Shown piece by piece: positions 3,549-62,644 of a stretch of 64,000 bases of DNA. Origin of the DNA: Rhabdophis nuchalis (Eukaryota > Chordata > Lepidosauria > Squamata > Natricidae); NCBI GenBank assembly GCA_039707465.1, contig CM077648.1, forward strand, positions 73,179,619-73,243,618, read 5' to 3'. The notes beneath the pieces were generated by a model. That model was not told the origin of the DNA, made no database searches, and saw nothing but the letters and a program-made list of their open reading frames with translations. The translations under genes and the position numbers were made by a program. The first letter of the stretch is position 1, and each line of letters starts with the position of its first letter.

Positions 3549-3558
3549 GCCATCTTGG
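3549..3558 (+). promoter_or_regulatory. YY1-like motif upstream of ORF1
   Basis: GCCATCTTGG lies 34 bp before the ORF1 start codon and matches the YY1 core GCCATNTT. The same motif is at 27315-27322 in copy C, and a T-variant is at about 43552 in copy D. The start codon sits in a good Kozak context (ACCATGG). Use by YY1 is inferred. Confidence 0.35.
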
Positions 3559-3582
3559 TGGCAGTGACTCTAACTTTTAACC

Positions 3583-5595: not shown

Positions 5596-8500
5596 ATGGA
5601 GACGGAAGCAACGATCAATAGTAAGGGCCAGGATAGCAGTCGACGGCGGGAAGCGGAAGGCGAAAGGAAGGGGGATACCCGAGTCGTTCCTCAGGAGGGC
5701 ATACCAATTCAGAGGGTCGTGGGGAGGGGCAGGACCGAGGGGAGACAATTCTCATCCTCCCGGTTGGTGGCACGCAGCCGTTGGTTACAAACGGTCGGGT
5801 GCCACAACCCCCGCAGGCTAGGTGGCCAGGGAATACAGAGCCAGGGTCTGCGGCTGATGTTCTGCAACGCCAGGTCCGTTGTCAACAAAGCCCCCCTCAT
5901 TAGTGACCTTGTGTCAGAGGGGGAGCCGGACCTGGTAGGAATTGCGGAGACCTGGTTGGGCCCCGAGGGAGGTCATCCCCTCGTTGAAATGTGCCCACCA
6001 GGCTACCGCGCATTTCATCAGCCGCGGGCCCTAGGCAGGGGTGGCGGGGTAGCGGTCATTATTAAGGAAGGCCTGGAGCCGAGAGAGACCATTGTGCCTC
6101 AGACCTCCGGCTGTGAGTCCCTCTGCATGAAGTGGGGCCTAGGGAGGCAGTTGGGCTTGCTGGTTGTATACCTGGCTCCCCGCTATGTAGCAGCAGCCCT
6201 GCCCGAGCTCCTCGAGGTGATCGCTACGGTGGCAGTGGAGACCCCCAGACTTATAGTCATGGGGGACTTTAATCTGCCATCGTTGGGCGAATCATCCGTG
6301 GCAGCTCGGGAGTTCATGGCTTCCATGACGGCCATGGACCTGACCCAAGTAATTCAAGGCCCCACCCATGAGGGTGGACATACGCCGGACCTCATCTTTG
6401 TCTCGGGCCAATGGAAGAGTGATCTGGGTACAGGGGATATAGTCATCACACCCTTGTCATGGTCAGACCACTCACTTCTCCGACTCGACTTTCCGACCGC
6501 TGCTCCCCTCCGCGGGGAGGCGGAACCAGAGTTACCAATCTGGTACCGCCCCAGGCGCTTGATGGACCCGGACGGGTTCCAGACAGCGCTTGGGCCATTT
6601 CCTGTATCCCTGACCCGCGCCCCGATGGAGGACCTCACGGCCGCATGGAATAATGCGGCCGTGGGAGCCTTAGATCGGGTCGCGCCCTTGCGGCCTCTCT
6701 CGCGGCGGCGAACCACCCTGGCTCCTTGGTTTACTGAGGGGCTGCGGGTGATGAAACGCCGCAAGAGATGCCTAGAGAGAAGGTGGAGGGCTAGCCGCTC
6801 TGAATCTGACCGGACACAGGTAAGAGCCCATTTACGGACTTACATTGTGGCGCTGAGGGTGGCCAAACGTCATCATTGTGCTACCCTCATAGCATCCGCA
6901 GAAAACCGCCCTACCGCCCTGTTTAGGGTGACCCGTTCTCTCCTTCATCAGAGGGAGCGGGAAGCCCCGCTACAGGGTAGAGCAGAGGAATTTGTGATTT
7001 TTCTGCAGGAGAAAACCGCCCAGATACAGAGTGAGCTAGCCCCCATTCATGGCCCAGTGGGATGCCACGAGAGAGATCTTGTTTGGGAGGAGTTTGACCC
7101 CGTTACTTCCGAGGATATGGACAGGCTACGTGGGCGACTGCGAGCCACCACATGTTCATTGGACCCGTGCCCCTCCTGGCTTGTACTGGCATCCTGGGAG
7201 GTGACACGAGGCTGGCTCCAAGAGGTTATCAACGCATCCTTGAGTGAGGGTTCCTTGCCTGCCTCCCTAAAAGAGGCTATGGTGAGGCCCCTCCTCAAGA
7301 AGCCCTCTTTGGACCCAGCTCTTTTGAACAACTACCGTCCAGTCTCCAACCTTCCCTTCTTGGCGAAGGTTGTTGAGAGTGTTGTGGCACAACAGTTTCC
7401 CCGTCACCTGGAGGAAGTTGACTATCTAGATCCGCGCCAGTCCGGCTTTCGGCCCGGGCATAGCACCGAGACGGCATTGGTCGCGTTGGTAGATGATCTC
7501 TGGAGGGCCAGAGATGGGGGATGTTCCTCCATCCTGGTCCTATTAGACCTCTCGGCGGCTTTCGATACCATCGACCATGGTATCCTATTGCATCGGCTGG
7601 GGGGGTTGGGGGTGGGAGGCACCGTTTTGCGGTGGTTCTCCTCCTACCTCTCTGGCCGATCGCAATTTGTGCGGGCAGGAGAGCAGAGGTCGACCCCGAG
7701 ACCTCTCACATGCGGGGTGCCTCAGGGGTCGGTCCTCTCGCCTCTCCTGTTTAATGCATACATGAAGCCGCTGGGTGAGATCATCCGTGGTTTTGGGGTA
7801 GAGTACCACCTGTACGCTGATGACACCCAGCTGTACATATCTACCCCAGACCACCCCAACGATGCCGTAGCGGTGATGTGCCAGTGCCTGGAAGCCGTGC
7901 GGATCTGGATGGGAAGTAACGGACTTAGGCTCAACCCGACCAAGACTGAGTGGCTGTGGTTTCCGGCTGCCCGATTCAACCAGCTTTCTCCAACGCTGGC
8001 CATAGGGGGCGAACATCTTGCCCCTGTGGATGGGGCGCGCAATTTGGGTGTCCTCCTGGATACCCGGCTGTCTATGGAAGAGCAAGTGACAGCCGTGGCC
8101 AGGAGGGCGTTTTACCAGGTTCGCCTGGTTCGCCAATTGCGCCCCCTATTGGATCGGGACGCCCTTCGCACAGTCACCCATGCCCTCGTGACATCCCGAC
8201 TGGACTATTGCAACTCTCTCTACATGGGGCTCCCCTTGAGGTGCACCCGGAGGCTTCAGTTAGTTCAGAATGCGGCCGCGCGAGCAATTATGGGCACCTC
8301 CAGGTTTGCCCATGTAACACCGCTCCTGCGCGAGCTGCACTGGCTACCTGTCGTCTTCCGGGTGCGCTTCAAGGTGTTAGTTATCATCTTCAAAGCGCTC
8401 CATGGCTCGGGACCTAGCTATCTGCGAGATCGGATCCTGCCCCACACATCCTCACGACCGATTCGCTCCCACAGAGAGGGGCTTCTCCGGGTGCCGTCCA

Positions 8501-8661
8501 CTAGACTTTGTCAGCGGGCGACGCCCAGGGGAAGGGCGCTCTCTGTGGCGGGCCCGGCCCTCTGGAACGACCTTCCCCCTGATATTAGAACGACCACCGA
8601 CCTCCGCTCCTTCCGGGTAAAATTGAAGACCCATCTCTTTCGACTGGCCGGCCTTGAATAG
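5596..8661 (+). CDS. L2 LINE ORF2: endonuclease-reverse transcriptase
   Basis: An intact 1021-codon frame. Residues about 85-310 form an apurinic-like endonuclease, with LRLMFCNARS (Asn91), GIAETWL (Glu118), VMGDFN and SWSDHSLL supplying the catalytic set. Residues about 555-810 form the reverse transcriptase, with YRPVSNLPFLAKVVE, SGFRPGHSTETAL, LDLSAAFDTIDH, GVPQGSVLSPLLF and YADD at 740-743. The C-terminal part carries the L2 signature RLDYCNSLYMGLP and LLRELHWLPV. Length and order fit the L2 clade. It would nick target DNA and copy its own RNA there. There are no stops or frameshifts, so this copy could be active. The chosen ATG is the first that gives the whole endonuclease. Confidence 0.93.
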   Translation: METEATINSKGQDSSRRREAEGERKGDTRVVPQEGIPIQRVVGRGRTEGRQFSSSRLVARSRWLQTVGCHNPRRLGGQGIQSQGLRLMFCNARSVVNKAPLISDLVSEGEPDLVGIAETWLGPEGGHPLVEMCPPGYRAFHQPRALGRGGGVAVIIKEGLEPRETIVPQTSGCESLCMKWGLGRQLGLLVVYLAPRYVAAALPELLEVIATVAVETPRLIVMGDFNLPSLGESSVAAREFMASMTAMDLTQVIQGPTHEGGHTPDLIFVSGQWKSDLGTGDIVITPLSWSDHSLLRLDFPTAAPLRGEAEPELPIWYRPRRLMDPDGFQTALGPFPVSLTRAPMEDLTAAWNNAAVGALDRVAPLRPLSRRRTTLAPWFTEGLRVMKRRKRCLERRWRASRSESDRTQVRAHLRTYIVALRVAKRHHCATLIASAENRPTALFRVTRSLLHQREREAPLQGRAEEFVIFLQEKTAQIQSELAPIHGPVGCHERDLVWEEFDPVTSEDMDRLRGRLRATTCSLDPCPSWLVLASWEVTRGWLQEVINASLSEGSLPASLKEAMVRPLLKKPSLDPALLNNYRPVSNLPFLAKVVESVVAQQFPRHLEEVDYLDPRQSGFRPGHSTETALVALVDDLWRARDGGCSSILVLLDLSAAFDTIDHGILLHRLGGLGVGGTVLRWFSSYLSGRSQFVRAGEQRSTPRPLTCGVPQGSVLSPLLFNAYMKPLGEIIRGFGVEYHLYADDTQLYISTPDHPNDAVAVMCQCLEAVRIWMGSNGLRLNPTKTEWLWFPAARFNQLSPTLAIGGEHLAPVDGARNLGVLLDTRLSMEEQVTAVARRAFYQVRLVRQLRPLLDRDALRTVTHALVTSRLDYCNSLYMGLPLRCTRRLQLVQNAAARAIMGTSRFAHVTPLLRELHWLPVVFRVRFKVLVIIFKALHGSGPSYLRDRILPHTSSRPIRSHREGLLRVPSTRLCQRATPRGRALSVAGPALWNDLPPDIRTTTDLRSFRVKLKTHLFRLAGLE

Positions 8662-8855
8662 TTCTCTCTGTCTTTTAATTACAAATTTTAATGGGTTTTA
8701 ATTATATATTTTTAGCATGGGTAGATTTATTTAATTCTATTTTAAGTAATGTTTGTATTTTGTATATTGTTTTTAATTATGCCTGTGCACCGCCCCGGGT
8801 CCCTGTGGGGAGAGGGTGCGGTTAATAAATCTTAATTTATTATTATTATTATTAG

Positions 8856-9283
8856 TTGCTGAGGCGGAAGCCTTTCTTAAAAAATATTCCTCTGTCCTGG
8901 GGGAAGATCCAGGGGGGACGGAGGGGGCCATGGCCCCGCCTACGGGGGGCCAGGGGGGAGAGAAAGAAGATACAATAGCCAAAAGACTTAGATCAAAAAA
9001 ATAACTTTGCCTTGATTTTTCTTGAACAATTTTGCATAATATTTCTATCTGGACTTTTTGTAAATGTCTGACAGCATGGAATGGAGAATTTAAGTAAATG
9101 TACTTGCTTTCATCTTGTAGTGGTATGGAAAATGTTTTCTATGATAACTTTTTTTATTGTGTATTTTGAGGTCTCGGAAGGTCCGACGACTCTAACGTGA
9201 ATGCTCTCAAAATTTCTTTGTAACCATTACCCTATCCTGTTAAAAAATGTAAAACCAATAAAACTTTTTCAATAAAAAAAAAA
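8856..9283 (+). pseudogene. ORF1-only copy A, C-terminal codons and 3' UTR
   Basis: The sequence resumes the interrupted frame (AEAEAFLKKYSSVLGED...TIAKRLRSKK, stop at 9002-9004). The 3' UTR that follows is shared with copies B, C and D and ends in AATAAAACTTTTTCAAT at 9257-9273 and a poly(A) run. The acidic-then-basic tail ending KRLRSKK is conserved in all copies and could be a nuclear localisation or RNA-binding tail. Confidence 0.85.
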
Positions 9284-9298
9284 AGAAATTTAAATATT
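9284..9298 (+). repeat. Target-site duplication of element A (right)
   Basis: Perfect 15-bp copy of 2694-2708, located directly after the poly(A) tail. Confidence 0.9.
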
Positions 9299-17990: not shown

Positions 17991-18179
17991 CTCTATGGCA
18001 GGGGTCCCCAACCTTTTTTGCACCAGGGACCGGTTTCATTTTAAAGAAAATTCTGCGGACCGGCTGAGTGGCTAAGCAGTCATGTGACTGGGTGGGCGTG
18101 GCCAACTTGGAAAATGTGAAACTCACTTAACAATGATTTTGGTTAGCAAACAAACTTTTGGCCTCAACTGTGGTCATAA

Positions 18180-18181
18180 GT

Positions 18182-18236
<55 letters not shown>

Positions 18237-18261
18237 CTTTTTCTTTCTTTCTTTCTTTCTT

Positions 18262-18293
<32 letters not shown>

Positions 18294-18690
18294 TCTTTGT
18301 CTCTGTCTCTCTTTCTTTCTCTTGCTATTTCTTTCTTTTTCTCTCTCTTTCTCTCTATTTCTTTCTCTTTCTTTCTTTTTCTCTTTCCCTCTTTCTCTCT
18401 CTTTTTCTTTCTCTCTCTCTCTCTCTTTCTGTATCTTTTTCTGTCTCTTTCTTTCCTTTCTGTCTCTTTCTCTCTGTCTGTCTTTCTCTCTCTCCCACTT
18501 TCTTTTTCTTTCTTTCTCTTTCTTTCTGTCTCTCTCCTTCATCCGCCCATCTCTGTCACTCTGTGTGTGTGTGCGTGTGTCTGTCTGTCTTGCATTCACT
18601 CAATCACTCATTCTGTGTCTCTGTCTATCTTTCTCTCCCTCCCTCCCTCTCTCTGTCTCTCTATGTGTGTCTGTCGTCGTCGTTGTCGTC
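18180..18690 (+). repeat. Pyrimidine-rich microsatellite tract carried by the hAT element
   Basis: (TTTC)n grades into (TC)n, TCTG and TGTG units and ends in (GTC)n. The long Ser/Phe/Leu frames here are products of the repeat, not genes. The same tract is inside copies 2 and 3. Confidence 0.9.
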
Positions 18691-18744
18691 GTCGTCCCCC
18701 CAGCCTCCTCAGCCCGCCTGCCGCGCTTGGTCGCTCATTCGCTC

Positions 18745-19180
18745 GGTCAGGCTCCGTGGCTGGGTAGGAGCCGGGCTGGAGAGGAGGAGGAGGGAGAAGG
18801 GGGCAGCCCATTGGGCAGAGCGCGCGGGAGAACGCAGGAGGATGGTGGGGGCTCTTCCTCCACCCTCGTCGACGGAGGGACTCCTGTGCGCCGCCGGAGC
18901 AACCCTCCAGTTCCCTCCCCCGCCCGCGGAGCCTCCGCAGCCCCTGGAAGAAAACGAGTGGCCGGCATGCCAGCAGGGGAGGGAATCGGTGACCAGTCCG
19001 GCGGCGCCCAGGAGTCCCTCCGTCGACGAGGGAGAAGGAAGAGCCACACTCCAACGGCGCGAACAGCCGCGCCTGTGTTCTCCCGCGCGCTCTGCTCAGG
19101 GGGCTGCTCCCTCCTCCCTCCTCCTCCTCTCCAGCCCTGCGGCCTGGCTCCCACCCAGCCACGGCCCGGCACCGGTCCGT
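18745..19180. repeat. GC-rich inverted repeat (foldback) with arms of about 200 bp
   Basis: The left arm has CTCCGTGGCTGGGTAGGAGCC, GCAGAGCGCGCGGGAGA and CCTCGTCGACGGAGGGACTCC (cited by ends; each has its complement). The right arm carries their reverse complements in reverse order: GGAGTCCCTCCGTCGACGAGG, TCTCCCGCGCGCTCTGC, CCCAGCCACGG. A transcript would form a long hairpin. Confidence 0.8.
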
Positions 19181-19203
19181 GGCCCGGGGGTTGGGGACCC
19201 CTG

Positions 19204-21055: not shown

Positions 21056-21410
21056 TTCTATTCTATGCATAGCTCCATCTGGATCATGGCTTCTATTTCC
21101 TGTAGATTCATTTCCATTCTGTTATTGAATTCTAAATTCAGCAAAATTCAGCATAATTTCTAAATGTCCGCTTGGAGCTGGATAATATTTGCATGGCAAA
21201 TAACCAGGAAAATCAAGGAGCGTAGGCTAGTTGGGAGATTGTAAAACAAATCACCAAATAAAGCATTTTTAAATGTTGCAGAAAAACACATCATCATCAA
21301 AAGGTAAGCTTGAGTTGAGAGAATCTTGATGCTTTAAGTACCAAAGAATAACTAGCAGTAGTTAAACATGTCATTAGTTTCACTTGATTATGAAGTCCTA
21401 ATGAGTTATA

Positions 21411-21427
21411 AGAATTCTATGGAAAGG
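21411..21427 (+). repeat. Target-site duplication of ORF1-only copy B (left)
   Basis: AGAATTCTATGGAAAGG, repeated at 22210-22226 as AGAATTCCATGGAAAGG (16 of 17 bases). Confidence 0.85.
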
Positions 21428-22209
21428 CGGATCTTAAAGATTTAATGAGTACAATTTTAGCAGATTATACTAAAAAGAATAAAGAATACCTCTGGGGGGA
21501 TATAAGCCTGATCTACAGAATTAACTCAGCATATGCTAGAATAAATGATGTACCTAGAGAGATTCATATTAAATTTTTAAGAAGGTCCACAAGGGATGAG
21601 ATACTGAGGGCACAGCGAGGGGGGCCTTTGAAATACCAACAAAAAGAAATTGCCATATTGAAGCAAATTCCAAAAAAAATTCGAGAGATAAGAAGGAAGT
21701 ATTCCTTCTTGTCCAAAAAATTATACAAAAAAGGAGTATGGTTCAAATGGTTAATGCCTGAAGGAATGTTGGTATTCTGGGATGGGGTAGAGTTAGAGTT
21801 GAAACAGTAGGAGAGGCAGAGGCCTTTCTTAAAAAGCATTCCTTAATCCTGGAAGATGAAGAAGGAGCGGGAGGGGCCACGGCCCCGCCCACTGGTGGGG
21901 AGGAGGAAGAAGAAACAATAGCAAAGAGACTCAGATCTCAAAAATGAATTTATTTCGAAACTATTATTTGTAATTCCTGAAAACGGATGTTAATATAAAA
22001 CAAAAGATTGAATGTACGAAGTTTATGATGTGATATATATATATATATATATCTTGCCACCATTTACTTAACTGTATTTTGTATGAAGCCTCGGAGGCAA
22101 CCACCGCCCCTGACATGGAAGTCCTAAAATGTTAATGTAATACCCTATATACTCCCTTTTCCTTTTTATACATTGTAAAACCAATATAAATTGTTTTTTT
22201 TTAAAAAAA
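21428..22209 (+). mobile_element. ORF1-only L1-type retroelement, copy B (5'-truncated)
   Basis: Begins within ORF1, in the RRM region. It runs through the C-terminal domain, the stop at about 21943-21945, the family 3' UTR (here with an AT dinucleotide run at 22033-22053) and a poly(A)-like end. The 17-bp duplications and 5' truncation are typical of L1-driven insertion. It is the most diverged of the four copies. Confidence 0.85.
21445..21945 (+). pseudogene. ORF1-only protein, C-terminal half, frameshifted
   Basis: The open stretch 21445-21807 covers the end of the RRM (YRINSAYARINDVPREIHIK) and the C-terminal domain (ILKQIPKKIREIRRKYSFLS, WFKWLMPEGMLVFWDG). A single-base shift near 21790 then breaks the frame; the normal end, ETIAKRLRSQK with stop, can be read in another frame up to 21945. 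The missing N-terminus and the shift make it non-functional. Confidence 0.8.
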
Positions 22210-22226
22210 AGAATTCCATGGAAAGG

Positions 22227-22868: not shown

Positions 22869-23175
22869 TTTTTTTTTTTTAATTGAAAAAGTTTTATTCA
22901 AACAAATTTCCCCCCCTTTTTACCCCCCGACATATAATATAAATCACATACAAATACTATACCCCCTCCCCTCCCCCTGTCTTAAAATAAATTTCTCATT
23001 CCAATATTGTATCCCCTCACCTCCCAACAATCATAATATAAATTTCTCTTAAAATAACAATATCCCATTAACCCCATCTTCTAAATTAATTGAACATATA
23101 TAAATCATAATATAAATGTCTCTTAACGTAACCATATCCCATTAATCCCATTTTCTAAATTAATTATACATATAT

Positions 23176-23232
23176 ATTTCCCCACCCTCCACCCTAACCC
23201 TCCCCCACCTCCCATTCAAACCCACCCCCTGA
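23176..23232 (-). repeat. G-rich tract in the L1 3' UTR
   Basis: On the transcribed strand there are at least six runs of three to five G within 57 bases, able to form a G-quadruplex. The second L1 has the same tract at 41227-41288. Mammalian L1 3' UTRs carry a comparable G-rich polypurine stretch. Confidence 0.6.
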
Positions 23233-23332
23233 CTTCCGCTATACACCACTCTAATAATTCCAAACATCCCATATAATATTTGCTCTATTCACATTGTATC
23301 CCTTACTTATCACCCTATCAATCTAAACATTC

Positions 23333-26227
23333 TTACCTAAAGGCTACATAATACTTCCTGGTCTGGTATCTATTCTGTATATAATCAATCCACTTTGCCC
23401 ATTCCTGTGCATAATTCTCCTGTTTCTGATCTTTTAAGAAAGCTGAAATTTTTGCCATTTCCACAAACCCCGCCACTTTCTGAATCCATTGATCAATTGT
23501 CGGTAAGAAATCTTTTTTCCAGTGTTGAGCAATCAACAACCTCGCTGCTGTAACCATATACAAAATCAATTTTGTTTCCCCTTTAGTAAAATCTTTAATT
23601 ATACCCAATAAAAACATTTGCAGGATAAATTGTATTCTTTTCTTAAATACATTTTGCATAACCCACCATATTTTTATCCAAAAAGCTTTAACCTTATTGC
23701 AAGTCCACCATACATGAAAAAAAGTAGCATCTAAACACCCGCATCTCCAGCATTTAGGTTGAACATTTGGGTACATACATGATAACTTCTTAGGATCTAA
23801 ATACCATCTGTAAAACATTTTATAAAAATTCTCCCTTAAATTCTGTGACTGCGTAAATTTAACATTCTGAACCCATATTTTTTCCCACGTATCCATCATA
23901 ACCGGTTCGTCAAGATTCTGAGCCCATTTAATCATACAATCCTTCACCAATTCGCTTTCTGAGTCTCTTTCTAACAATACATTGTATATTCTTTTAACAT
24001 GTTTTGGACCAGTCTCTTTTATCTGCTTGATCAGTTCAGCTTCTTTATCCATAAAGCCTACCCTGCAGTCTTCTTTCCATCTCTTCTGTAACTGTATGTA
24101 ATGTAACCAATTTAAAGTAATTCCTACGTCCAACAGTTGTTCCATAGTTTTCAACTGCCATTCAACCCCATCAAAAATAAGCACATCTTTATATAAACAC
24201 CCCCCGAGTGACTTAATATTTGTAATCCACATGGTGTCTGCAAGATCCAACCAAAGCGGTATTTTATGATCCCAATTAGGCCGATGCTTCTTCCATATTC
24301 TCATCAAGGCACTTCGGAGAACGTGGTTGTTAAACACTTTGTCCACCTTATCTTCATAAAACAAATATGCATGCCAACCCAGAACAAGGTCATGACCTTC
24401 TATATTCAATAATTCAGCTTTTGTTTTCCCAAACCAATCTGCCACACACGTCAATGCCGCCGCTTCATAATACAGTCGAAGGTTTGGGAGTCTAAGGCCA
24501 CCTCTTTCACGAGTATCTTGCATAATCTTTATCTTTACTCTTGGTTTTTTCTCCTTCCAAACAAATTTGTATAATGTTGCTTGCCATTCTGACAAAATTT
24601 TATCTGATTTAAGCACCGGTATCATCTGAAATAAGAAAATAAATCTAGGTAGAATATTCATTTTAATTGCTGAAATCCTTCCAAGCAAAGATAGTGGTAG
24701 CTTTTTCCAAACTTGAAGATCCTTCTGTATCTTTTGCCACAACACTTCATAGTTATTTGAAAAAAGTTTTGCATTTACTTCTGCAATTTGTATTCCTAAA
24801 TATTTGACTTTAGAAACGATTTCGAACCCTGCCAGACTTACAAGTCTTTTTCTCTGAATCTCTGGCATATTTTTAACCATCATTTTCGTTTTATTTTTAT
24901 TCAGTTTAAACCCAGACACCATGCCAAATTCTGCAATGATATTTTTCATCTGGATTATTGAGTTCAAAGGATGTGAAAGGGTAACAACCAGATCATCAGC
25001 AAATGCCCTAGTTCTGTATTCCTTTTGCCTAATAATTATACCACTTAAAGAATTTGAGTCCCGAATTGTATTCAACAAGACTTCCAGAGTTAAAATAAAT
25101 AACAATGGAGATAATGGGCATCCTTGTCTTGTACCTTTTTGTATCTCAAAAGTTGTAGACAAATTTCCGTTGATAATAAGTTGTGCGTTTTGTTGCTGAT
25201 AAATTGCTCCAATCGCTTGTCGAAATCGTGGTCCCATATCCATCTTTTCCAACGTCTTGGTTAGAAAATTCCAGTTCACACGATCGAAGGCTTTCTCCGC
25301 ATCCAAAAAGACCAGCACTGCAGAGACCTGTTTATTCTTATCAAGATAGTCAATTAAATCGATAAGTTGCCTTACATTCTCCTTCATATGTCTGCCTTCA
25401 ATAAATCCTGCTTGGTCATAGTGAATAACCTCTTGGATAACTGGCATCAATCTGTTGGCAAGTACTTTAGCATATATTTTATAATCTGTATTTAGAAGAG
25501 ATATCGGTCTGTAATCCTCTGGTTTCTTAGGGCCGTCTTTGTCTTTGGGTATCAATGATATAAAAGCCGCTTTCCATGAGAGAGGTATTTTACCTCCTTG
25601 CTGAATATTGGAAAATAATTCTGTAAGATATTCAATCATTTCCAATTGTAAAGTTTTATAGTAGATTGCAGTCAAACCATCAGTCCCTGGAGCCTTGGCT
25701 AATTTAAGTTGGTTTATAGCTAAAATAATCTCGTCTGCAGTTATCAAACGTTCCAAATTTGCCTTTTGAAGCACGGCTATTTTAGTAACCCTTTTTCCTT
25801 CCAGAAAGTCCTCTATTGAGTTATTCTGTATATTGTCCTGTAAATATAACTTGGTGTAATAATCCACAAATGATTTTTTAATCAAAACCTGTTGATATAC
25901 CGTTTTCCCTCCATATTCAATTCTATCAATAATTCTATTATTCGTATTCTTTCTCAAGGTGTAGGCCAACCACCTACCAGGTTTATTAGCGTTGGCAAAA
26001 GAATTATGTTTGGCAAATTGTAAGTTAGTTGCTGTTTGTTCTGATATAAGCATTTGAAATTGATCTTTCAACAGCTTTATCGCCATCTGGAGTGTCACAT
26101 TTTTTGGAGTTACTATAAGTAACTGCTCCTTTTTTTTAATTGCCTTTTGACCCCACGCTCCAGTTTGAAAACACCTCCTATTTGATCTGGCCCGGTAAAG
26201 CCTTAAATGTAAACCAGGCCAGTGCAA
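23333..26227 (-). pseudogene. L1 ORF2 protein, RT and C-terminal part
   Basis: 964 open codons. RT motifs in order: FISLIPKDKDGPKKPEDYRPI (about residue 215, cited by its ends), QAGFIEGRHMKENVRQ, FLDAEKAFDRVNW, GTRQGCPLSPLLF, and FADD at 409-412 (24992-25003), the normal L1 form of the active site. The C-terminal region ends with a Cys/His cluster, CWRCGCLDATFFHVWWTC, matching the L1 C-terminal zinc-knuckle-like motif. The endonuclease domain is missing, and the first 40 residues look like junction sequence. The copy lacks a promoter and endonuclease but has no internal stop, so it inserted recently. It represents the autonomous family that could drive the ORF1-only elements. Confidence 0.88.
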
Positions 26228-26498: not shown

Positions 26499-28450
26499 GG
26501 CTTCCGGTTCCGCCTTCCAGCGGCGACGGACGAGTCTTGGGACTCGTCCGCCGTTTTGATCTTTTTTCTGCCCCCCAACGGGGGCGGGGCACCCCTGTTT
26601 TGGGGTCCCTCCATAAGGCTGGCTTGCCTGGGTCGGTTTATCCCAGCGGCGGCGGGAAAACAGCCCTTGTCTTCGGTCTAGGCGAGAAAAGACATGCTGC
26701 GGGGGGTTTTCCCTTCGCCAATGGAGGACGGCAACGCACGATGAATTTGGAGAGAGCTGAGTGTTCGGATCGGAAGGCTTTCCAGGGCGTTGGCGGTGAG
26801 GTGAAGAGTGAGTGACTTTAACCTTATTTGTGCTGGCAGCCTGGACTGAAAGAACATGGAGGGGGGTGTTTGTTTGTTAAACCCCCCCTCGGATTTAAAG
26901 CGGCGCTTAGAAATGGCTCCTCGTTGCGAGGAAGCGGACATTTCGCATCCGGATTGCTTTGAAGCAAGTGAAAGTGTTTTGCGGCTTGTTTCTTTACAAT
27001 GTATCTAAGTCCGGCTGGCTTGAAACAATTTTTCCTTTGCTACTTTCTCCTGCTGGCTCTCAGACTGGGCGGTGGAAGATGGCTGCCCTTTGTTCCTGAA
27101 TGACTATTTTTACTTATGGAAAATTACCAACATCTCTTTGTGATTTGGACTCCCTCTCTCTATTAATGAAGAAATTTCTGGATTAATTGATTCCTTCCCT
27201 GGAGTGCCTTCCCTGCTATAATTATTGACTGTGAAAAGTGTTTCTCTTCTGGGTCTTGAACTTTTTACAACCCTGTTTTCTCCTGACCTGCTTCAACGGC
27301 CCCACCCAAAAAACGCCATCTTAGTGGCACTGACTTTATCATCTTACCATGGCATCAAAATCAGAATTGGCAGGTTTGGAACAAAGAATGACATCAATGG
27401 AATCAGTGTTACAAGCTTTGGTGCAGGAAATTAAAGCTTTGAGAGAAGATAATAGCAGCTTCAAGAAGGATCTTTTGGAAACACGGAAACAAGTGCTGGA
27501 GAACACACAGAAGACTGAGGAGCTGGAAGGGGGGCTGGCTGGGGCAAAGGGAGAGCTTAAAAATGTTAACAGTGAGGTTAGAGAATTGACAGGGCATATG
27601 TCTAGGATGGATTTTGAAAGGATGTCATATTTTTTAAGATTTCAGAACATTTCTGAAGAACCTGGTGAATGTCTTCCTGAACTCATGAGCACAATTTTAG
27701 CAGACTATTTACATAAACCTAAAGATGAGATCAGGGGGGACATTGACCTAGTTTACAGAATAAACTCGACATATGCCAGGATAAATGAAGTACCCAGAGA
27801 GATACATATTAAATTTGTTAGAAGGTCAACCAGAGAGGGAATTTTGAAGGCGCAGAGAGGGGGGCGGCTAATTTACCAACAAAAGGAAGTCGCCATCTTG
27901 AAGCAGATCCCAAAAAAGATTAGAGAGATGAGAAGGAGGTATTCCTTCTTATCAAAAAAATTGTTTGACCACGGGACTTGGTTTAAGTGGGCGATGCCGG
28001 AAGGGATGTTGGTGTTCTGGGAAGGAGGGAGAGTTAGGATTAAAACAGTTGTTGAGGCGGAAGCCTTTCTTAAAAAACATTCCTCTGTCCTGGGGGAAGA
28101 TTCAGGGGGGGCCACGGCTCCGCCCGCTGGGGGCCAGGAAGGAGAAAAAGAAGATACAATTGCCAAGAGACTTAGATCGAAAAAATAACTTTGCTTTTTT
28201 TATTAACATTGTATAACCTTTATATCTGGATGTTTGCACATGACTGCCAGCATAGAATTGAGAATTTAGGAAGCATGCACTTATTTTCACCTCGTAGTAT
28301 TTTTGGAAAATGTTTTTTTAATGTTTTATTATGAAGCCCTGGAAGGGCCAATGATCCCGACACAAAAGTTCTCAAAATGTTTCTGTATCCCTTACCTTTC
28401 CCTTTTGGAAAAATTGTAAAAACCCAATAAAACTTTTTCAATACAAAAAG
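26499..28450 (+). mobile_element. ORF1-only L1-type retroelement, copy C (full length)
   Basis: Starts GGCTTCCGGTTCCG. It has an 850-bp 5' UTR that aligns along its length with copy A (CGGGGGG/GGGGGTTTTT.. and YY1-like blocks), an intact 279-codon ORF1, the family 3' UTR with CCAATAAAACTTTTTCAAT (28424-28442) and a short A-rich end. Total about 1.95 kb. No ORF2 lies between the ORF1 stop and the poly(A) signal. A clean target duplication was not found, possibly because of later changes at the A-rich end. Confidence 0.85.
27349..28188 (+). CDS. L1-type ORF1 protein of the ORF1-only element (intact)
   Basis: 279 codons with ATG in Kozak context (ACCATGG). Residues 1-95 are coiled coil with Leu/charged heptads and a Gly-rich break (LEGGLAGAKGELK). 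Residues about 97-175 are RRM-like (SYFLRFQNI; RGDIDLVYRINSTYARINE, given by its ends). Residues 176-250 are the C-terminal domain (ILKQIPKKIREMRRRYSFLS; WFKWAMPEGMLVFWEGGRVR). Residues 250-279 form an acidic/Pro-Gly linker and the basic end TIAKRLRSKK. In L1 this protein coats RNA as trimers and acts as a chaperone in the retrotransposition particle. The frame is open even though the element has no ORF2, so it was probably kept by selection until recently. The assignment to the L1 ORF1 fold is by pattern, not by search. Confidence 0.85.
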   Translation: MASKSELAGLEQRMTSMESVLQALVQEIKALREDNSSFKKDLLETRKQVLENTQKTEELEGGLAGAKGELKNVNSEVRELTGHMSRMDFERMSYFLRFQNISEEPGECLPELMSTILADYLHKPKDEIRGDIDLVYRINSTYARINEVPREIHIKFVRRSTREGILKAQRGGRLIYQQKEVAILKQIPKKIREMRRRYSFLSKKLFDHGTWFKWAMPEGMLVFWEGGRVRIKTVVEAEAFLKKHSSVLGEDSGGATAPPAGGQEGEKEDTIAKRLRSKK

Positions 28451-28920: not shown

Positions 28921-29103
28921 CAGGGGTCCCCAACCTTTTTTGCACCAGGGACCGGTTTCATTTTAAAGAAAATTCTGCGGACCGGCTGAGTGGCTCAGCA
29001 GTCATGTGACTGGGTGGGCATGGCCAACTTGGAAAATGTGAAACTCACTTAACAATGATCTTGGTTAGCAACCAAACTTTTGGCCTCAACTGTGGTCATA
29101 AGT

Positions 29104-29166
<63 letters not shown>

Positions 29167-29187
29167 CTTTTTCTTTCTTTCTTTCTT

Positions 29188-29219
<32 letters not shown>

Positions 29220-30164
29220 TCTTTGTCTCTGTCTCTCTTTCTTTCTCTTGCTATTTCTTTCTTTCTCTCTTTCTCTCTCTTTCTCTCTTTATTTCTTTCT
29301 CTTTCTTTCTTTTTCTCTTTCCCTCTTTCTCTCTCTTTTTCTTTCTCTCTCTCTCTCTCTTTCTGTATCTTTTTCTGTCTCTTTCTTTCCTTTCTGTCTC
29401 TTTCTTTCCTTTCTGTCTCTTTCTCTCTGTCTGTCTTTCTCTCTCCCACTTTCTTTTTCTTTCTTTTTCTTTCTTTCTCTTTCTTTCTGTCTCTCTCCTT
29501 CATCCGCCCATCTCTATCACTCTGTGTGTGTGTGCGTGTGTCTGTCTGTCTTGCATTCACTCAATCACTCATTCTGTGTCTCTGTCTATCTTTCTCTCCC
29601 TCCCTCCCTCTCTCTGTCTCTCTATGTGTGTCTGTGTCGTCGTTGTCGTCGTCGTCCCCCCAGCCTCCTCAGCTCGCCTGCCGCGCTTGGTCGCTCATTC
29701 GCTCGGTCAGGCTCCGTGGCTGGGTAGGAGCCGGGCTGGAGAGGAGGAGGAGGGAGGAGGGGGCAGCCCATTGGGCAGAGCGCGCGGGAGAACGCAGGAG
29801 GATGGTGGGGCCTCTTCCTCCACCCTCGTCGACGGAGGAACTCCTGTGCGCCGCCGGAGCAACCCTCCAGTTCCCTCCCCCGCCCGCGGAGCCTCCGCAG
29901 CCCCTGGAAGAAAACGAGTGGCTGGCATGCCAGCAGGGGAGGGAATCGGTGACCAGTCCGGCGGCGCCCAGGAGTCCCTCCGTCGACGAGGGAGGAGGAA
30001 GAGCCACACTCCAACGGCGCGAACAGCCGCGCCTGCGTTCTCCCGCGCGCTCTGCTCAGGGGGCTGCCCCCTCCTCCCTCCTCCTCCACTCCAGCCCTGC
30101 GGCCCGGCTCCCACCCAGCCACGGCCCGGCACCGGTCCGCGGCCCGGGGGGTTGGGGACCCCTG
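28921..30164 (+). mobile_element. hAT foldback element, copy 2 (1244 bp)
   Basis: Same ends and order as copy 1. The flanks are TTCTGGAG (28913-28920) and TTCTAGAG (30165-30172), matching at seven of eight bases. It contains the pyrimidine tract (about 29102-29630) and the GC-rich foldback (about 29700-30145). It looks nearly identical to copies 1 and 3 apart from repeat length. Confidence 0.9.
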
Positions 30165-33982: not shown

Positions 33983-34940
33983 CAGGGGTCCCCAACCCCC
34001 GGGCCGCGGACCGGTGCCGGGCCGTGGCTGGGTGGGAGCCGGGCCGCAGGGCTGGAGAGGAGGAGGAGGGAGGAGGGGGCAGCCCCCTGAGCAGAGCGCG
34101 CGGGAGAACACAGGCGCGGCTGTTCGCGCCATTGGAGTGTGGCTCTTCCTTCTCCCTCGTCGACGGAGGGACTCCTGGGCGCCGCCGGCCTGGTCACCGA
34201 TTCCCTCCCCTGCTGGCATGCCGGCCACTCGTTTTCTTCCAGGGGCTGCGGAGGCTCCGCGGGCGGGGGAGGGAACTGGAGGGTTGCTCCGGCGGCGCAC
34301 AGGAGTCCCTCCGTCGACGAGGGTGGAGGAAGAGCCCCCACCATCCTCCTGCGTTCTCCCGCGCGCTCTGCCCAATGGGCTGCCCCCTTCTCCCTCCTCC
34401 TCCTCTCCAGCCCGGCTCCTACCCAGCCACGGAGCCTGACCGAGCGAATGAGCGACCAAGCGCGGCAGGCGGGCTGAGGAGGCTGGGGAGACGACGACGA
34501 CAACGACGACGACAGACACACATAGAGAGACAGAGAGAGGGAGGGAGGGAGAGAAAGATAGACAGAGACACAGAATGAGTGATTGAGTGAATGCAAGACA
34601 GACAGACACACGCACACACACACAGAGTGACAGAGATGGGCGGATGAAGGAGAGAGACAGAAAGAAAGAGAAAGAAAGAAAAAGAAAGTGGGAGAGAGAG
34701 AAAGACAGACAGAGAGAAAGAGACAGAAAGGAAAGAAAGAGACAGAAAAAGATACAGAAAGAGAGAGAGAGAGAGAAAGAAAAAGAGAGAGAAAGAGGGA
34801 AAGAGAAAAAGAAAGAAAGAGAAAGAAAGAGAGAGAAAGAGAGAGAAAAAGAAAGAAATAGCAAGAGAAAGAAAGAGAGACAGAGACAAAGAAAGAGAAA
34901 GAGAGAGAGAGAGAGAAAGAAAGAAAGAAAGAAAGAAAAG

Positions 34941-35023
<83 letters not shown>

Positions 35024-35206
35024 ACTTATGACCACAGTTGAGGCCAAAAGTTTGGTTGCTAACCAAAATCATTGTTAAGTGAGTTTCACATTTTCCAAGT
35101 TGGCCACGCCCACCCAGTCACATGACTGCTGAGCCACTCAGCCGGTCCGCAGAATTTTCTTTAAAATGAAACCGGTCCCTGGTGCAAAAAAGGTTGGGGA
35201 CCCCTG
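33983..35206 (-). mobile_element. hAT foldback element, copy 3 (inverted)
   Basis: Perfect TTCTAAAG duplications lie at 33975-33982 and 35207-35214. The order is reversed relative to copies 1 and 2: foldback first (about 34015-34445), then the purine-rich (GAAA)n tract (about 34500-35025). Ends CAGGGGTCCCCAACC and GGTTGGGGACCCCTG. Confidence 0.9.
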
Positions 35207-40924: not shown

Positions 40925-41374
40925 TAATTTTTTTTAATTGAAAAAGTTTTATTCAAACAAATTTTCCCCCTTTTTACACCCCCAACATATAATAAAAATC
41001 ACATACAAATACTATACCCCCTCCCCTCACCCCGTCTTAGAATAAATTTCTCATTCAGATATTATACCCCCTCGCCTCCCAGCAAACACAATATAAATTT
41101 CTCTTAATATATCAATATCCCATTAACGCCATCTTCTAGCTTAATTAAACCTATATAAAACATAATATAAATTTCTCTTTAAAAAACCATATCCCATTAT
41201 TCCCATCTCTAGATTAATCATACATATATATTTCCCCACCCTCCACCCTAACCCCCCCCACCTCCCATTCAAACCCACCCCCCTGACTTCCGCTATACAC
41301 CACTCTAATAATTCCAAACATCCCAAATATTATTTACTCTGTTCACCTATCAATCTAAACATTCTTACCTAAAA

Positions 41375-42735
41375 GCTACATAGTACTTCCTAGTCTGATA
41401 TTTATTCTATATATAATCAATCCCTTAGAAACCTTATAACAGACCCATCATAAACACCCACACCTTTAACCTTTTAGCTAAACATTAAAATACATACATA
41501 ATAATTTGCATCCTTCCTGGTTCAAAAGGTTTGCTATTTTCCTCTCTCCATTTGCTTGATTGCCCACTTAGCAACACAAAAAATGTAAGGATTACTCTAG
41601 TATTTGAAAAGAACACAGTTACTTCTCTTTTCACAGAGGAAACAGAAGTGGTATAGAAAGATTTCAGATCCTATCACAGGAAGGATACAGTAAATTGCAG
41701 GCAAATTTCTACTTCAATACATACATGATGATAATTTCTTAGAATGTAGATACCATCTATAAAATGTAATATAAACTTCTTCCAACAGATATTCCAAACC
41801 AAAAACGCAATATCGTAACAACCAGATCGACTGCAAATGCTCTAGTATATCCCTTTTACCTTATAGCTATGCCATTTAAGAGATTCAAATCCATATATAT
41901 TATATGGATTATAATTATATTCAACAAGACTTCTAAAGTTACAATAAATAACATTAGAAATAATAAACCTTGTCCAAATCCCATATTCATTCCCCCCGCC
42001 CCAAGTCTTGATTAGAGAGTTTCGGTTCATTCACTCGTAGGCCTTTTTCACATCCAAAAAAGCCAGCATTGCAGAGATCTACATATTTTTATCTAGATAG
42101 ACAATTAAAAATTATGAGTTGCCTTGCATTCTCCCTCACATATCCCCTCTTAAATAACTGGCATCAATCTGTTGGAGTAAACACCCATATCTGCTAAGTT
42201 CTCCCTTCCAGCATTTTAATTAACCATTAGGTTACCTACATAATGATAATTTCTTCGAATCTAGATACCATCTGTAAAATATATTATAAAGATTCTCCCT
42301 TGAGTTCTATATCTATACAAATTTAGCATTTAACTTTCAAAGTTCGACCCAAGTTTTTCCCCAGAACACTAACATGATATTAATCCTTTCCGCGTCAATA
42401 TTCATAAGTCCAACTCTTCAGGTCTGTTTCCATCCCTTCCGTAGCTGCTTGTAATACCAGTTTAAGCAGCTGCCCCCATGAATAACAAAAATACCCTTTA
42501 TATAAGCAACCCCCGAGTGACTTTTCATCAGGATTATTAAATATATAAGCAACCCCCAAGTGACTTTTCATCAGGATTATTAAATTCCAAAAACGTGATA
42601 GGGTAACAACCAGATCCACTGCAAATGCTCCGGTTCCAGTTTTCAGTCATAAGCCTTTTCCACATCCAAGAGAACCAGCATTGCAGAGATCTGCATATTT
42701 TTATCTAGATAGTCAAATAACTGGCATCCAACTAT
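41375..42735 (-). pseudogene. Remnant of L1 ORF2, deleted and duplicated
   Basis: Blocks homologous to 23336-25380 appear out of order. The C-terminal codons are at 41375-41430. Two sets of the RT blocks (GATACCATCTRTAAAA; AACAACCAGATC; GCAGAGATCT) are at about 41720-42200 and 42240-42735. A 42-bp unit around TAAGCAACCCCCRAGTGAC is tandemly doubled at 42505-42585. The catalytic core is not open. Confidence 0.65.
41508..41705 (-). repeat. Fragment related to the retrovirus-like element at 349-545
   Basis: Shared order of GCATCCTTCCT, TTGCTTGATTGCCCACTTAG, GGATACAGTAAATTGCAGGCA-type blocks (about two thirds identical by eye). It sits inside the scrambled L1 ORF2. Confidence 0.55.
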
Positions 42736-42738
42736 TGG

Positions 42739-43233
42739 CTAATTGCTTCTTCCTTTTATCCTTTTGTCTTTCTTAACTCGCCGAGATTGAGACCTCCTCT
42801 GCTTCTGCGGTTTCTGAATTCGTCTGGTGCTAGACCTGGCTTCACATTGCTCATCTGATTTACATATTGGCATTCCAACGGATCCCCCTATAGCAGTCAC
42901 TTGAAATCCGCTTGCAGCACCCTGGGCTTCCCTCTCTTTTTGTGTCTGCCTTATCTGTTCTTCTGTCTCTTTCTCAAACAGCCTCTGCTCTAAGGCGTCC
43001 AGGTCTGCTGGTGTTGGTGTAGATGTACGTGGGGGCGTTGCACTTGCCTTCAGTATTCCATCATAAAAATCTCTTGCCTTATCTATAGTATTCAGACGAT
43101 ACCTCACCCCCTCATATCTGAATATAACACCCATTGGGGCATCCCACCTAAATGGTATCTCTCTTTTCTTCAACTCAGCTACCAAAAATCCAAAATCCCT
43201 TCTAAGCTTTAATACCGCCGGAGGCAGCTCCTT
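42739..43233 (-). pseudogene. L1 ORF1 protein, C-terminal part (separated by copy D)
   Basis: The frame carries the L1 ORF1 C-terminal domain: LKKREIPFRWDAPMGVIFRY and NTIDKARDFYDGIL near the start, then a long Lys/Arg/Gln-rich tail ending in a basic cluster (QKQRRSQSRRVKKDKRIKG). The codons just before, up to 43233, read on in the same frame to the edge of the duplication, so the protein was whole before copy D landed. The tail is longer and more basic than in the ORF1-only proteins. Confidence 0.75.
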
Positions 43234-43244
43234 AAAAACACTGA
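43234..43244 (+). repeat. Target-site duplication of ORF1-only copy D (left)
   Basis: AAAAACACTGA, repeated at 44706-44716 after the poly(A). Confidence 0.85.
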
Positions 43245-44705
43245 AACAATTTATTCTACCACTCTCTCCTTCGGGCTTTGAGCTTGGGCGTGGAAGATGG
43301 CTTCTCTTTGTTCCTGACTGACTATTTCACTTATGGAAAATTCCCAGCGTCTCTTTGCAATTTGGACTTCCTCTGGTTATTAATGAAGAATTTTTTCTTT
43401 TTGGATTTGTGATTTCTTTTCTGGAGTACCTTCGCTATTATACTTATTGAGTTGGAAAATTGTTTCTCTCTTGGTTCCTGAACTTTGCAACTTTACAACC
43501 CTGAACGGAACTTTTGGCTCCTGATCTGCCTCATCAGCCTCACCCAGAAAACGCCATTTTAGTGGCATTGATTTTAACAGCTAATCATGGCACAAGAAAC
43601 AGCACTGGCAAGCTTAGAACAAAGGATGGCTTCTCTTGAATCTGTTATACAAACTTTGGTACAAGAAATTAAGGCCCAGAGGGCAGAAAATATTAACTTT
43701 AAGAAGGAGTTATTGGACACACGGAAACAAGTGCTGGAAAACACACAGAAGAATGAAGAATTGGAAGGGGGGCTGGTGGGGGCTAAGGGAGAGATTAAAA
43801 ATGTTACTAATGAGGTTGTGGAAATAAATGAGCATGTGTCTAGGATTGATATGGAAAGAATAACATATTTTTTGAGATTTCAGAATGTTTTTGAGGAACC
43901 TGGTGAATGCCTCCCTGATCTCATGAGCACAATTATAGCAGACTATTTACATAAACCTAAGGATGAGATCAGGGGGGACATTGACCTAGCCTACAGAATA
44001 AACTCAGCATATGCCAGGATAAATGAAGTACCTAGAGAGATACATGTGAAATTTGTTAGAAGGTCAACCAGAGAGGAAATCCTGAAAGTGCAGAGAGGAA
44101 GTCCGTTAATTTACCAACAAAAAGAGATTGCTATCTTGAAGCAGATCCCAAGAAAGATTAGAGATGCAAGAAGGAAATTTTCCTTCTTGTCTAAAACATT
44201 GTTTGATCACGGGATTTGGTTCAAGTGGGTGACACCCGAAGGGATGCTGGTGTTCTGGGAAGGAGGAAGAGTGAGGATTAAAACAGTTGCCGAGGCGGAA
44301 GCCTTTTTCAAAAAACACTCCTCTGTCCTGGGGGAAGATTCAGGGGGGGCAGGGGGGGCCACGGCCCCGCCCGCTGGGGGCCTGGAGGAAGAGGTTGAAG
44401 ACACAATTGCCAAGAGACTTAGATCTAAAAAATAACTTTGCCTTGATTTTTCTGAATAATATTGCATAATATCTGTATTTGGATTTTTGTAAATGACTGA
44501 CAGCATAGAACTGAGAACTTAGGTATATGTACTTGCTTTCACTTTGTAGTGTTACGGAAAATGTTTTTTTATTGTTATCAATGTATTTTGAAGTCCCGGA
44601 AGGGCCGACGACTTTGACGTGAACGCTCTCAAAATTTCTTTGTATCCCTTACCCCATCCTATGGAAAAATGTAAAACCAATAAAACTTTTTCAATATAAA
44701 AAAAA
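43245..44705 (+). mobile_element. ORF1-only L1-type retroelement, copy D (5'-truncated in the 5' UTR)
   Basis: Contains the last roughly 340 bp of the 5' UTR, an intact 282-codon ORF1, the family 3' UTR with AATAAAACTTTTTCAAT (44680-44696) and poly(A). It is inserted, in opposite orientation, into the ORF1 gene of the L1 family that probably mobilises it. The clean 11-bp duplication with an A-rich start fits an L1 endonuclease target. Confidence 0.9.
43587..44435 (+). CDS. L1-type ORF1 protein of the ORF1-only element (intact)
   Basis: 282 codons starting at ATCATGG. Domain order as in copy C: coiled coil 1-95 (LEQRMASLESVIQTL; KELLDTRKQVLENTQ), RRM about 97-175 (TYFLRFQNV; PREIHVKFVRRSTREEIL), C-terminal domain 176-250 (KQIPRKIRDARRKFSFLS; WFKWVTPEGMLVFWEGGRVR), and a Gly/Pro/acidic linker ending TIAKRLRSKK. 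Most differences from copy A are conservative. It differs strongly from the L1 ORF1 into which it is inserted, although both share the layout and scattered motifs (YRVNS versus YRINS; QLPRDVVI versus EVPREIHV). It is predicted to bind RNA; it cannot move alone. Confidence 0.87.
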   Translation: MAQETALASLEQRMASLESVIQTLVQEIKAQRAENINFKKELLDTRKQVLENTQKNEELEGGLVGAKGEIKNVTNEVVEINEHVSRIDMERITYFLRFQNVFEEPGECLPDLMSTIIADYLHKPKDEIRGDIDLAYRINSAYARINEVPREIHVKFVRRSTREEILKVQRGSPLIYQQKEIAILKQIPRKIRDARRKFSFLSKTLFDHGIWFKWVTPEGMLVFWEGGRVRIKTVAEAEAFFKKHSSVLGEDSGGAGGATAPPAGGLEEEVEDTIAKRLRSKK

Positions 44706-44716
44706 AAAAACACTGA
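44706..44716 (+). repeat. Target-site duplication of copy D (right)
   Basis: Perfect copy of 43234-43244. Confidence 0.85.
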
Positions 44717-45317
44717 TCAGTTGTCCATCTACCTGAGTAGAGGAGTAATAAGACTTCTGCACAATATCGTTTCTAAAGTTTCTCTCGGTGAAATATATCA
44801 CAACATCTCTCGGTAATTGCCTTTGTAGTGCTATACGTGAATTTACTCTGTACGTTTTATCAATTTTAGCATAAATTTCACCAGGATCCACTTTTAATAA
44901 TATAGCCAAAGCATCAGCACAAGCTTTTCTTAAATCTTCTCTAGAATTCTCTCTAAGACCTCTCAACCTAATAGCATGCTCCATTGACCTAAGTTGTAAC
45001 ATAATAACCTCATGATCTATCTTGCGCATGTTTCCCTCCATTTCCACAAATTTCAAATCCGTTTCCTTTGCTTTAACTTCCACCTCTGAGGCCAATCGCT
45101 CAATTTTAGAATCAACCTTAATTATAACTTCAGACAGGCTCTTAGCCATAGCTTGCATATTTTTATCCAGTTGATCATGTTTATCCTGAACCGCACTCTT
45201 AAGTTGATCATGTTTATCCTGAACCACTCTCTTAAGTTCTGTACTTTCATTAGCTATGAAATTCATCAATTCTTTAAAATCCTGGGTAGTTACTGCACCA
45301 GCCCATTCCGTTGCCAT
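44717..45317 (-). pseudogene. L1 ORF1 protein, N-terminal part (split by copy D)
   Basis: The ATG at 45315-45317 opens about 200 codons. Residues 1-105 form a coiled coil with an internal duplication (VVQDKHDQLK and AVQDKHDQLD). Residues about 108-190 form the RRM, with MLQLRSMEHAIRLRGL, a helix, GEIYAKIDKTYRVNSR and LPRDVVIYFTER. The frame runs into copy D just after QVDGQLISV. This is the ORF1 of the autonomous L1 family, which has lost function here through the insertion. Confidence 0.8.
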
Positions 45318-45949
45318 CTTTTAAACTTCCCAAGAAAAATGCTCTTCGAAATATCCAAATAAGTCAATAAATCAAATAGTGCGTTTGGCTTTATAACTTG
45401 CTCCCCCTTTCCGCCTGCAGCTGTCCGCTATCAGCCAGGGGTTAAGCAGAGACCAAAAGCCACAAATCAGTAATTAGACAAAGCAACTAACTTTCGTTTC
45501 ATTTCATCTGGTAGTTAACGCCATCTTGAATCCTTTGTTCTAAGAGCTGTATCTTAAAACAGTTCACGAACTTTAATTACTTGCGTTTAGTTTCCTTTGA
45601 AGTACGAACGCTTGAAATATAGTCCTTCTTGATGGATTGCCTGGAGCATATTTTAAAGAGTTGTTTACGGTTGTCTTGCTTCGCTAAACCCTTAGCGAAG
45701 GGGTCCGGCAGCCTGGAACTAAAGCCACTGAGAAGGGGGGCTCTCCTTGCCTGCTCCCCAGAGGCTATAATACCTTCTGGAGAGCTACACAAGAGGCTCA
45801 ACCAAACAGCGTGAGTTCTCCCATAAATTCCTAAGGATTTATGAGTATCCGAGACATTTACGATGTTATAAAAACGCCTCTGACAAGCTGCTGGATCGGC
45901 AAGCTCATAAGAGCCTGTCCGCGACAGCCGAAGCTCAACCCGGAAGTCC
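45318..45949 (-). promoter_or_regulatory. 5' UTR of the second L1
   Basis: 632 bp, beginning GGACTTCCGGG at the very end. CTTCCGG is an ETS-type core and also opens the ORF1-only elements. No TATA box is visible, as usual for LINE internal promoters. Confidence 0.5.
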
Positions 45950-50737: not shown

Positions 50738-51179
<442 letters not shown>

Positions 51180-51403
51180 TTAATTTAATTTAATTTAATT
51201 TAATTTAATTTAATTTAATTTAATTTAATTTAATTTAATTTATAACCCGCTCTCTCTCCCCAAAGGACTCGAGGCGGGGCACAGGGAAATTAAAAATACA
51301 TATAAAAACAATACAGTATTAAAAAGAATTAAACTAAAACCCTGTGCTAAAATCCCATGTTAAAACTAAGACAAACCCCTAAAAAACCCTAAAAACAGTT
51401 AAG

Positions 51404-52906: not shown

Positions 52907-52921
52907 TAAACATGTGGTAGC

Positions 52922-54309: not shown

Positions 54310-54511
54310 CTTTGTGAAACCTCTTGACTCTGGCCATTGCAGCCAGGACTTCCCGGTCGAGCTGGCTGTAATTCCACTTGGTCAAGGACATGGTTCGGGA
54401 ATAGTAGGCGATCGGTGCCTCCATTCCATTGAGCATGCGATGGCTGAGGATGGCTCTGACCCCTTAGGGCAAGGCGTCACAGGTCGGGATGAGGGGGTGG
54501 GTCTGGCTGTA
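54310..54511 (-). pseudogene. Gypsy RNase H, N-terminal part
   Basis: APIAYYSRTMSLTKWNYSQL and REVLAAMARVKRFHK are the Gypsy RNase H start. It is separated from the RT frame by stops near 54475 and 54512 and cut at the L2 junction. Confidence 0.75.
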
Positions 54512-62640: not shown

Positions 62641-62644
62641 AAAG

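Follow-up and report, generated by a model that had tools for sequence, protein, structure and literature searches.

The closest described counterparts of the elements reported here are the HAL1 (half-L1) elements of mammals, reportedly described by Bao and Jurka in 2010. HAL1 encodes ORF1p alone and had several independent origins in mammals (PMC5753468), and its machinery is probably provided by L1 (PMC4161310). Rat HAL1, a shorter L1, keeps on integration an internal promoter that full-length L1 often loses (PMC8535693). L1TD1, by comparison, is a domesticated, L1-derived mammalian gene (PMC4161310). In SINE/LINE pairs, the non-autonomous element has the 3' tail of the LINE that is thought to copy it; mammalian L1 has relaxed 3' recognition and needs a poly(A), and the reptilian pairs have CR1, Bov-B, L2, and Vingi tails, with no L1 tail among the rows consulted (PMC3747384). 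When assayed in culture, an Alu transcript driven by pol II acts as processed pseudogenes do and requires both ORF1p and ORF2p (PMC2666806), so an ORF1-only pol II RNA with its own ORF1p would need only outside ORF2p. No squamate or reptilian half-L1 was found described in the titles and abstract openings of the open-licence papers listed by literature searches, and HAL1 and ORF1 are absent from the main text of PMC6050309.

The window analyzed here, a 64-kb stretch of the Rhabdophis nuchalis genome, contains four plus-strand copies (A to D) of an element with this architecture. The original prediction had claimed four copies sharing ORF1, stop codon, 3' UTR, and poly(A) without an ORF2, and all of these features, or for copy B the 3' part of ORF1, are present at each site. 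Copy C (26499-28449) is apparently full-length, with a 5' UTR of about 850 bp (26499-27348) that begins GGCTTCCGG, an intact L1 ORF1p-like ORF1 of 279 aa (27349-28188), a 3' UTR (28189-28442) terminating in AATAAAACTTTTTCAAT at 28426-28442, and a short A-rich tail. Copy A (2709-9283) is also full-length and was subsequently split by a LINE-like insert (about 4281-8853); its target site duplication (TSD), AGAAATTTAAATATT, lies at 2694-2708 and 9284-9298, and its ORF1 (3583-4280, resuming at 8854, to 9004) runs on past the insert and is open over 282 aa with the insert removed. Copy D (43245-44705) is truncated within the 5' UTR, has an intact ORF1 of 282 aa (43587-44435), and sits, flanked by the TSD AAAAACACTGA, in ORF1 of a resident L1, L1b. 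Copy B (21428-22208), the most diverged of the four, starts inside ORF1 immediately after its TSD (AAGAATTCyATGGAAAGG, 17/18, at 21410-21427 and 22209-22226) and carries one one-base frameshift. All three complete ORF1s are thus open; intact frames had been predicted for C and D, which they are, and A has to be added to them once its insert is left out. The shared 5' UTR predicted for A (874 bp) and C extends over its entire length (nhmmer model 1-872) and from the same first base; the full-length element is about 1.95 kb. Two of the four copies are complete at the 5' end and two are 5'-truncated (B and D), a proportion that can be set beside the promoter retention reported for rat HAL1. The interval from the ORF1 stop to the terminus, which had been predicted to be constant, measures 269 bp in A, 256 bp in B, 254 bp in C, and 260 bp in D, with the ends judged by eye and that of B approximate, its terminus being diverged.

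A blastn search of the window with C as the query (E 1e-3) recovered A (2709-4282 and 8854-9280), B (from 21445), and D (43242-44702) and no further matches. No additional copies were found in the window by nhmmer with 5'- and 3'-UTR profiles, the sole extra row being on the minus strand inside A (E 0.15). A tblastn search of the resident ORF2 across the window (E 1e-3) found nothing between the ORF1 and poly(A) of any copy apart from a weak match (28% identity, 7213-7950) to the RT region of the LINE that later entered A. When the four 3' UTRs were searched by themselves, no convincing ORF2 remnant was found, the best matches being 12 residues in C (E 0.057) and 14 residues in A (E 0.12), both on the opposite strand. 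An ORF2 with endonuclease and reverse transcriptase is therefore found in none of the four copies, so they do not qualify as autonomous L1s, and all four encode ORF1p, or in B the 3' part of it, without ORF2p, which bears out the predicted HAL1-like architecture. In its workings, the family would be of HAL1 type, a likeness drawn from descriptions of mammalian HAL1: both appear to be ORF1-only, non-autonomous L1 derivatives, thought in the case of HAL1 to be mobilized by L1. A conserved 3'-UTR hairpin is not claimed, since the RNAalifold consensus was weak (-5.59 kcal/mol, covariation term -0.19).

The copies bear the marks of individual insertion. The two arms of the TSDs match at 15/15 bp in A, 11/11 in D, and 17/18 in B, and the A-rich 3' ends of these three copies lie beside them. 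No clear TSD was read in the flanks of C, for which the candidate seen by eye, AAAAATAATTT/AAAAAGATGTT, is weak (8/11). The usual target of the L1 endonuclease is TT/AAAA, and the target site before D is TT/AAAA, with AT/AGAA for A and AT/AAGA for B. Read from these features, A, B, and D are separate insertions of an ORF2-less RNA, with the hallmarks of target-primed reverse transcription (TPRT) present.

The ORF1 of C has a predicted coiled coil (residues 2-92), an RRM (about 90-186), and a C-terminal domain (about 187-248), and a PDB search with the predicted fold returned human L1 ORF1p as all of the best ten matches. By query, the TM-scores reached no more than 0.24-0.30, with an rmsd of 10-13.6; these low values may be put down to differing domain placement in the model. 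Pfam gave no significant L1 ORF1 domain on the ORF1s of C, B, D, or L1b and only Transposase_22 on A, under the cut-off (14.5 bits, E 0.047, cut-off 22.4); a PDB search with a single ORF1 sequence gave no L1 match; and a 6-row ORF1 profile reached L1 ORF1p in PDB at E 0.54-1.5 only, a profile match requiring 24 rows. The AlphaFold model from 6 sequences was poor (pLDDT 47.4). With its coiled coil, RRM, and C-terminal domain, the half-L1 ORF1 product is an L1 ORF1p.

Protein database searches, in two of which the approximately 8,000 candidates with the most shared words were scored, returned at least 22 distinct relatives of ORF1. The closest among the matches listed, P0001 (82% identity over 70% of C) and P0002 (73% over 62%), lie on short ENA contigs, and P0003 and P0004 are 44% and 38% identical to C. 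The organism is named for 14 of the 22 relatives listed, which belong to Erythrolamprus, Notechis, Micrurus, Pseudonaja, Pantherophis, Naja, and Laticauda, all of which we take to be snakes; this lends indirect support to the prediction of a squamate element. No relatives were found in the viral contig collection or the genome contig collection. Five of the snake L1 ORF1-like proteins (P0005, P0006, P0011, P0014, and P0022) have database names such as nucleoporin GLE1-like, PF3D7_1120000-like, Smc-like, and tropomyosin-like, and these misleading names imply that ORF1s of this kind are entered as host genes in annotated gene sets. In a 25-row tree, from which the short or marginal P0021 and P0022 were omitted, as from alignment A3, copies A to D formed one clade with P0001 and P0002, six rows in all and with a support of 100/99, in agreement with the prediction of a separate ORF1 lineage. 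The clade branches as a ladder, B first, C and D next, and finally P0002 together with A and P0001, three rows whose order is less well supported (82/88 and 82/83). The tree was rooted on the L1b ORF1, which is on a very long branch, and its root is unsure. The ORF1s of A to D differ from HAL1 in grouping with ORF1s from snake genomes and in belonging to a non-mammalian host.

A dN/dS calculation had been proposed as a check on ORF1, and it indicates purifying selection. The Nei-Gojobori dN/dS ratios were 0.23 (A-C), 0.31 (A-D), 0.21 (C-D), 0.16 (A-B), 0.14 (C-B), and 0.14 (D-B), with dS between 0.26 and 1.28, and synonymous sites changed at three to seven times the rate of nonsynonymous sites. 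By codon maximum likelihood, omega was 0.231 (lnL -2259.54), and omega = 1 was rejected (lnL -2316.74). A two-omega model gave 0.357 for tips A and D and 0.183 for the remainder (lnL -2256.76); a higher omega on these tips is expected if selection stops after copies insert. The pairwise divergence among A, C, and D was 22-33% in the 5' UTR (0.328 for A-C), 15-26% in the 3' UTR, and 11-19% in ORF1. The one ground for placing this selection in an ORF2-less state is the shared junction, from which we infer it.

Two resident L1s lie on the minus strand of the window. L1a (22869-26227) is 5'-truncated and has an ORF2 frame of 964 codons (23333-26227) with RVT_1, a 3' UTR, and the 17-nt terminus; a domain search of this ORF2 did not find the endonuclease domain. 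L1b (40934-45949) is a full-length L1 copy with the TSD GTTTCCATCCA, split by D; it has a 368-codon ORF1, open with D left out, and a 3' UTR of the L1a type, its 3' end being 87% identical to that of L1a. All that stands in the place of its ORF2 is scraps in two ordered series, of which the pieces of at least 58 nt are 69-82% identical to L1a. Neither is a working source of ORF2, L1a being 5'-truncated and the ORF2 of L1b wrecked. Judged from its sequence, L1a could be the type of element able to supply ORF2p, itself incomplete, and L1b, with an intact ORF1 next to a wrecked ORF2, may have lost ORF2 while keeping ORF1, in which case this one copy may represent a second, younger ORF1-keeping lineage.

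The half-L1 copies and the resident L1s have a terminus in common. The 17-mer AATAAAACTTTTTCAAT occurs at exactly five sites on the two strands of the window, which are the 3' ends of A (9257, plus), C (28426, plus), D (44679, plus), L1a (22882-22898, minus), and L1b (40937-40953, minus), and allowing up to 3 mismatches adds one more site (0.82 expected). The 17-mer includes the AATAAA signal, which leaves about 11 nt of free evidence. The best local alignment of the A, C, and D 3' UTRs with those of L1a and L1b consists of this 17-mer, in some cases extended by a few A-rich bases that follow it, and in the six comparisons 0 or 1 of 300 shuffles scored as high; outside this terminus, the A, C, and D 3' UTRs have no similarity to L1a or L1b, so that just the terminal 17 nt are shared, another point on which the copies are set apart from HAL1. 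Copy B ends in AATATAAATTGTTTT, without the 17-mer, and its 3' UTR has no match above chance with that of L1a or L1b (shuffles as high: 22/300 and 120/300). It does clearly match the 3' UTR of C (score 50, the top of 300 shuffles being 35, with 0/300 as high), and to a lesser degree those of A (1/300 as high) and D (10/300). At the other end, L1b starts GGACTTCCGG, which resembles the start of A and C; wider homology of the A and C 5' UTRs to L1b was rejected, the scores lying within those of shuffled sequences (27/100 as high for A and 92/100 for C). Compared with autonomous L1s (the remains of L1a and L1b, with human L1 as the structural reference), the half-L1 has the same ORF1p domains and TPRT hallmarks, a GG(A)CTTCCGG start as in L1b, and a AATAAAACTTTTTCAAT(A)n 3' terminus, but it is without ORF2 and its UTRs are otherwise unalignable with those of L1a and L1b. 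That three copies end like the neighboring L1s suggests that the half-L1 borrows the L1 copying enzyme, and, given the common 17-mer, L1s of the resident type would supply the ORF2p. This common 3' end is also the likeness to SINE/LINE pairs, the difference being that the half-L1 codes for ORF1p. The conserved tail in A, C, and D would point to stringent 3' recognition by L1s of the resident type, and it bears on the open question of whether non-mammalian L1s recognize a specific 3' end or merely poly(A).

As a separate observation, GCCATCTT lies 34 nt upstream of the ORF1 start in A (3549, plus) and C (27315, plus), and AAGATGGC occurs twice near or before the L1b ORF1 (45527 and 45320, minus), with a variant in D. 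The motif, which we take to be YY1-like, is also found elsewhere in the window, at 10 sites altogether.

Copies A to D are probably members of a long-lived, ORF1-only, non-autonomous family derived from L1, which provides ORF1p for itself and relies in trans on L1 ORF2p for its copying. This reading draws from the sequence on the architecture, the identity of the product as L1 ORF1p, the purifying selection, the TPRT hallmarks of A, B, and D, and the common terminus, and mobilization in trans is suggested by the 17-mer in A, C, and D. In the proposed mechanism, an internal pol II promoter is expected within the 5' UTR of about 850 bp, and the half-L1 RNA would make its own ORF1p, which would form trimers and coat the RNA that encodes it, in a presumed cis preference. 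The endonuclease and reverse transcriptase would be supplied in trans as ORF2p by L1s that share the 3' terminus, and this ORF2p would copy the half-L1 RNA into nicked genomic DNA. The active source elements would have been without ORF2 throughout, and selection would keep ORF1 intact in the absence of ORF2, since each RNA codes for the protein that coats it.

The copies might instead have arisen by splicing or internal deletion from an autonomous, ORF2-bearing L1 family, which we consider unlikely. With a donor after ORF1 and a 3'-UTR acceptor, splicing would produce an identical junction each time, and selection on ORF1 would look identical under this explanation, since the full-length parents need ORF1; moreover, L1b shows that ORF2-internal deletion occurs in this genome, and ORF2-bearing relatives of the half-L1 ORF1 or 3' UTR may be common outside the 64-kb window. 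A working parent, however, should leave 5'-truncated copies consisting of ORF2 and 3' UTR, and none of the four copies of this 3' UTR in the window is of this kind, although four is a small number. The single junction is also kept among deeply diverged copies, with a dS of up to 1.28, and their ORF1 is only 29% identical to that of L1b (175 columns), both of which tell against such by-products.

That A to D are retropseudogenes of one domesticated, ORF1p-derived host gene, comparable to L1TD1, is very improbable. The ladder-like tree, with its longer trunk and short tips, is what one evolving gene shedding copies would give, and omega is lower on the inner branches (0.16-0.18) than on the tips (0.33-0.36). 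Retropseudogenes decay, however, and when each tip was simulated as wholly neutral at its fitted length, with indels ignored, the three frames all stayed open in 0 of 20,000 trials, and the omega of the tips is itself below 1. In addition, a 5' start motif as in L1b and a 3' 17-mer as in both L1s are unexpected for a host mRNA, and in two of the four the 5' UTR is complete and begins at an identical base. The half-L1 resembles L1TD1 in retaining an L1-derived coding sequence without ORF2, but L1TD1 is a host gene, and the half-L1 is mobile, multicopy, and marked by TSDs and poly(A). Deleted L1s are common in general and L1b is itself one, but that ordinary L1s gave rise to the four copies by unrelated chance deletions is hardly credible and was dismissed, as the original prediction had done in favor of a defined family, because the copies have one junction and one ORF1 clade, with TSDs around the ORF2-less form in three of four.

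The persistent ORF1-only family may, more tentatively, be one half of a two-part squamate L1 system, a possible but doubtful extension in which lasting ORF1-only elements (A to D, with L1b as a second lineage under way) would coexist with ORF2-bearing suppliers of the enzyme, all with a common GG(A)CTTCCGG start and AATAAAACTTTTTCAAT end. If so, reptilian L1 ORF2p would still recognize a specific 3' sequence, unlike that of mammalian L1, and ORF1-only parasites would arise and last outside mammals. The half-L1 strategy would then be a recurrent outcome of L1 evolution and not a mammalian peculiarity, and it would offer a natural comparison for why ORF1 stays while ORF2 goes.

Other repeats are present in the window. 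The LINE inserted in copy A (4281-8853) has a 1021-codon reading frame (5596-8661) and occurs in several copies, with similar stretches near 1565-2504, 51404-54300, 57972-58471, and 62638-63992; we take it to be of CR1/L2 type. On the minus strand at 49726-56718, integrase-, RT-, and gag-like frames, apparently interrupted by a LINE, presumably belong to a Ty3/Gypsy element. A repeat of about 1.2 kb has three copies, at 17999-19203 (plus), 28921-30164 (plus), and 33983-35206 (minus), which are 96-99% alike over their longest ungapped stretches. With inverted ends CAGGGGTCCCCAACC/GGTTGGGGACCCCTG, 8-bp duplications (8/8, 7/8, and 8/8), and a long internal TTTC microsatellite, it is presumably a recently active, non-autonomous hAT-type element.
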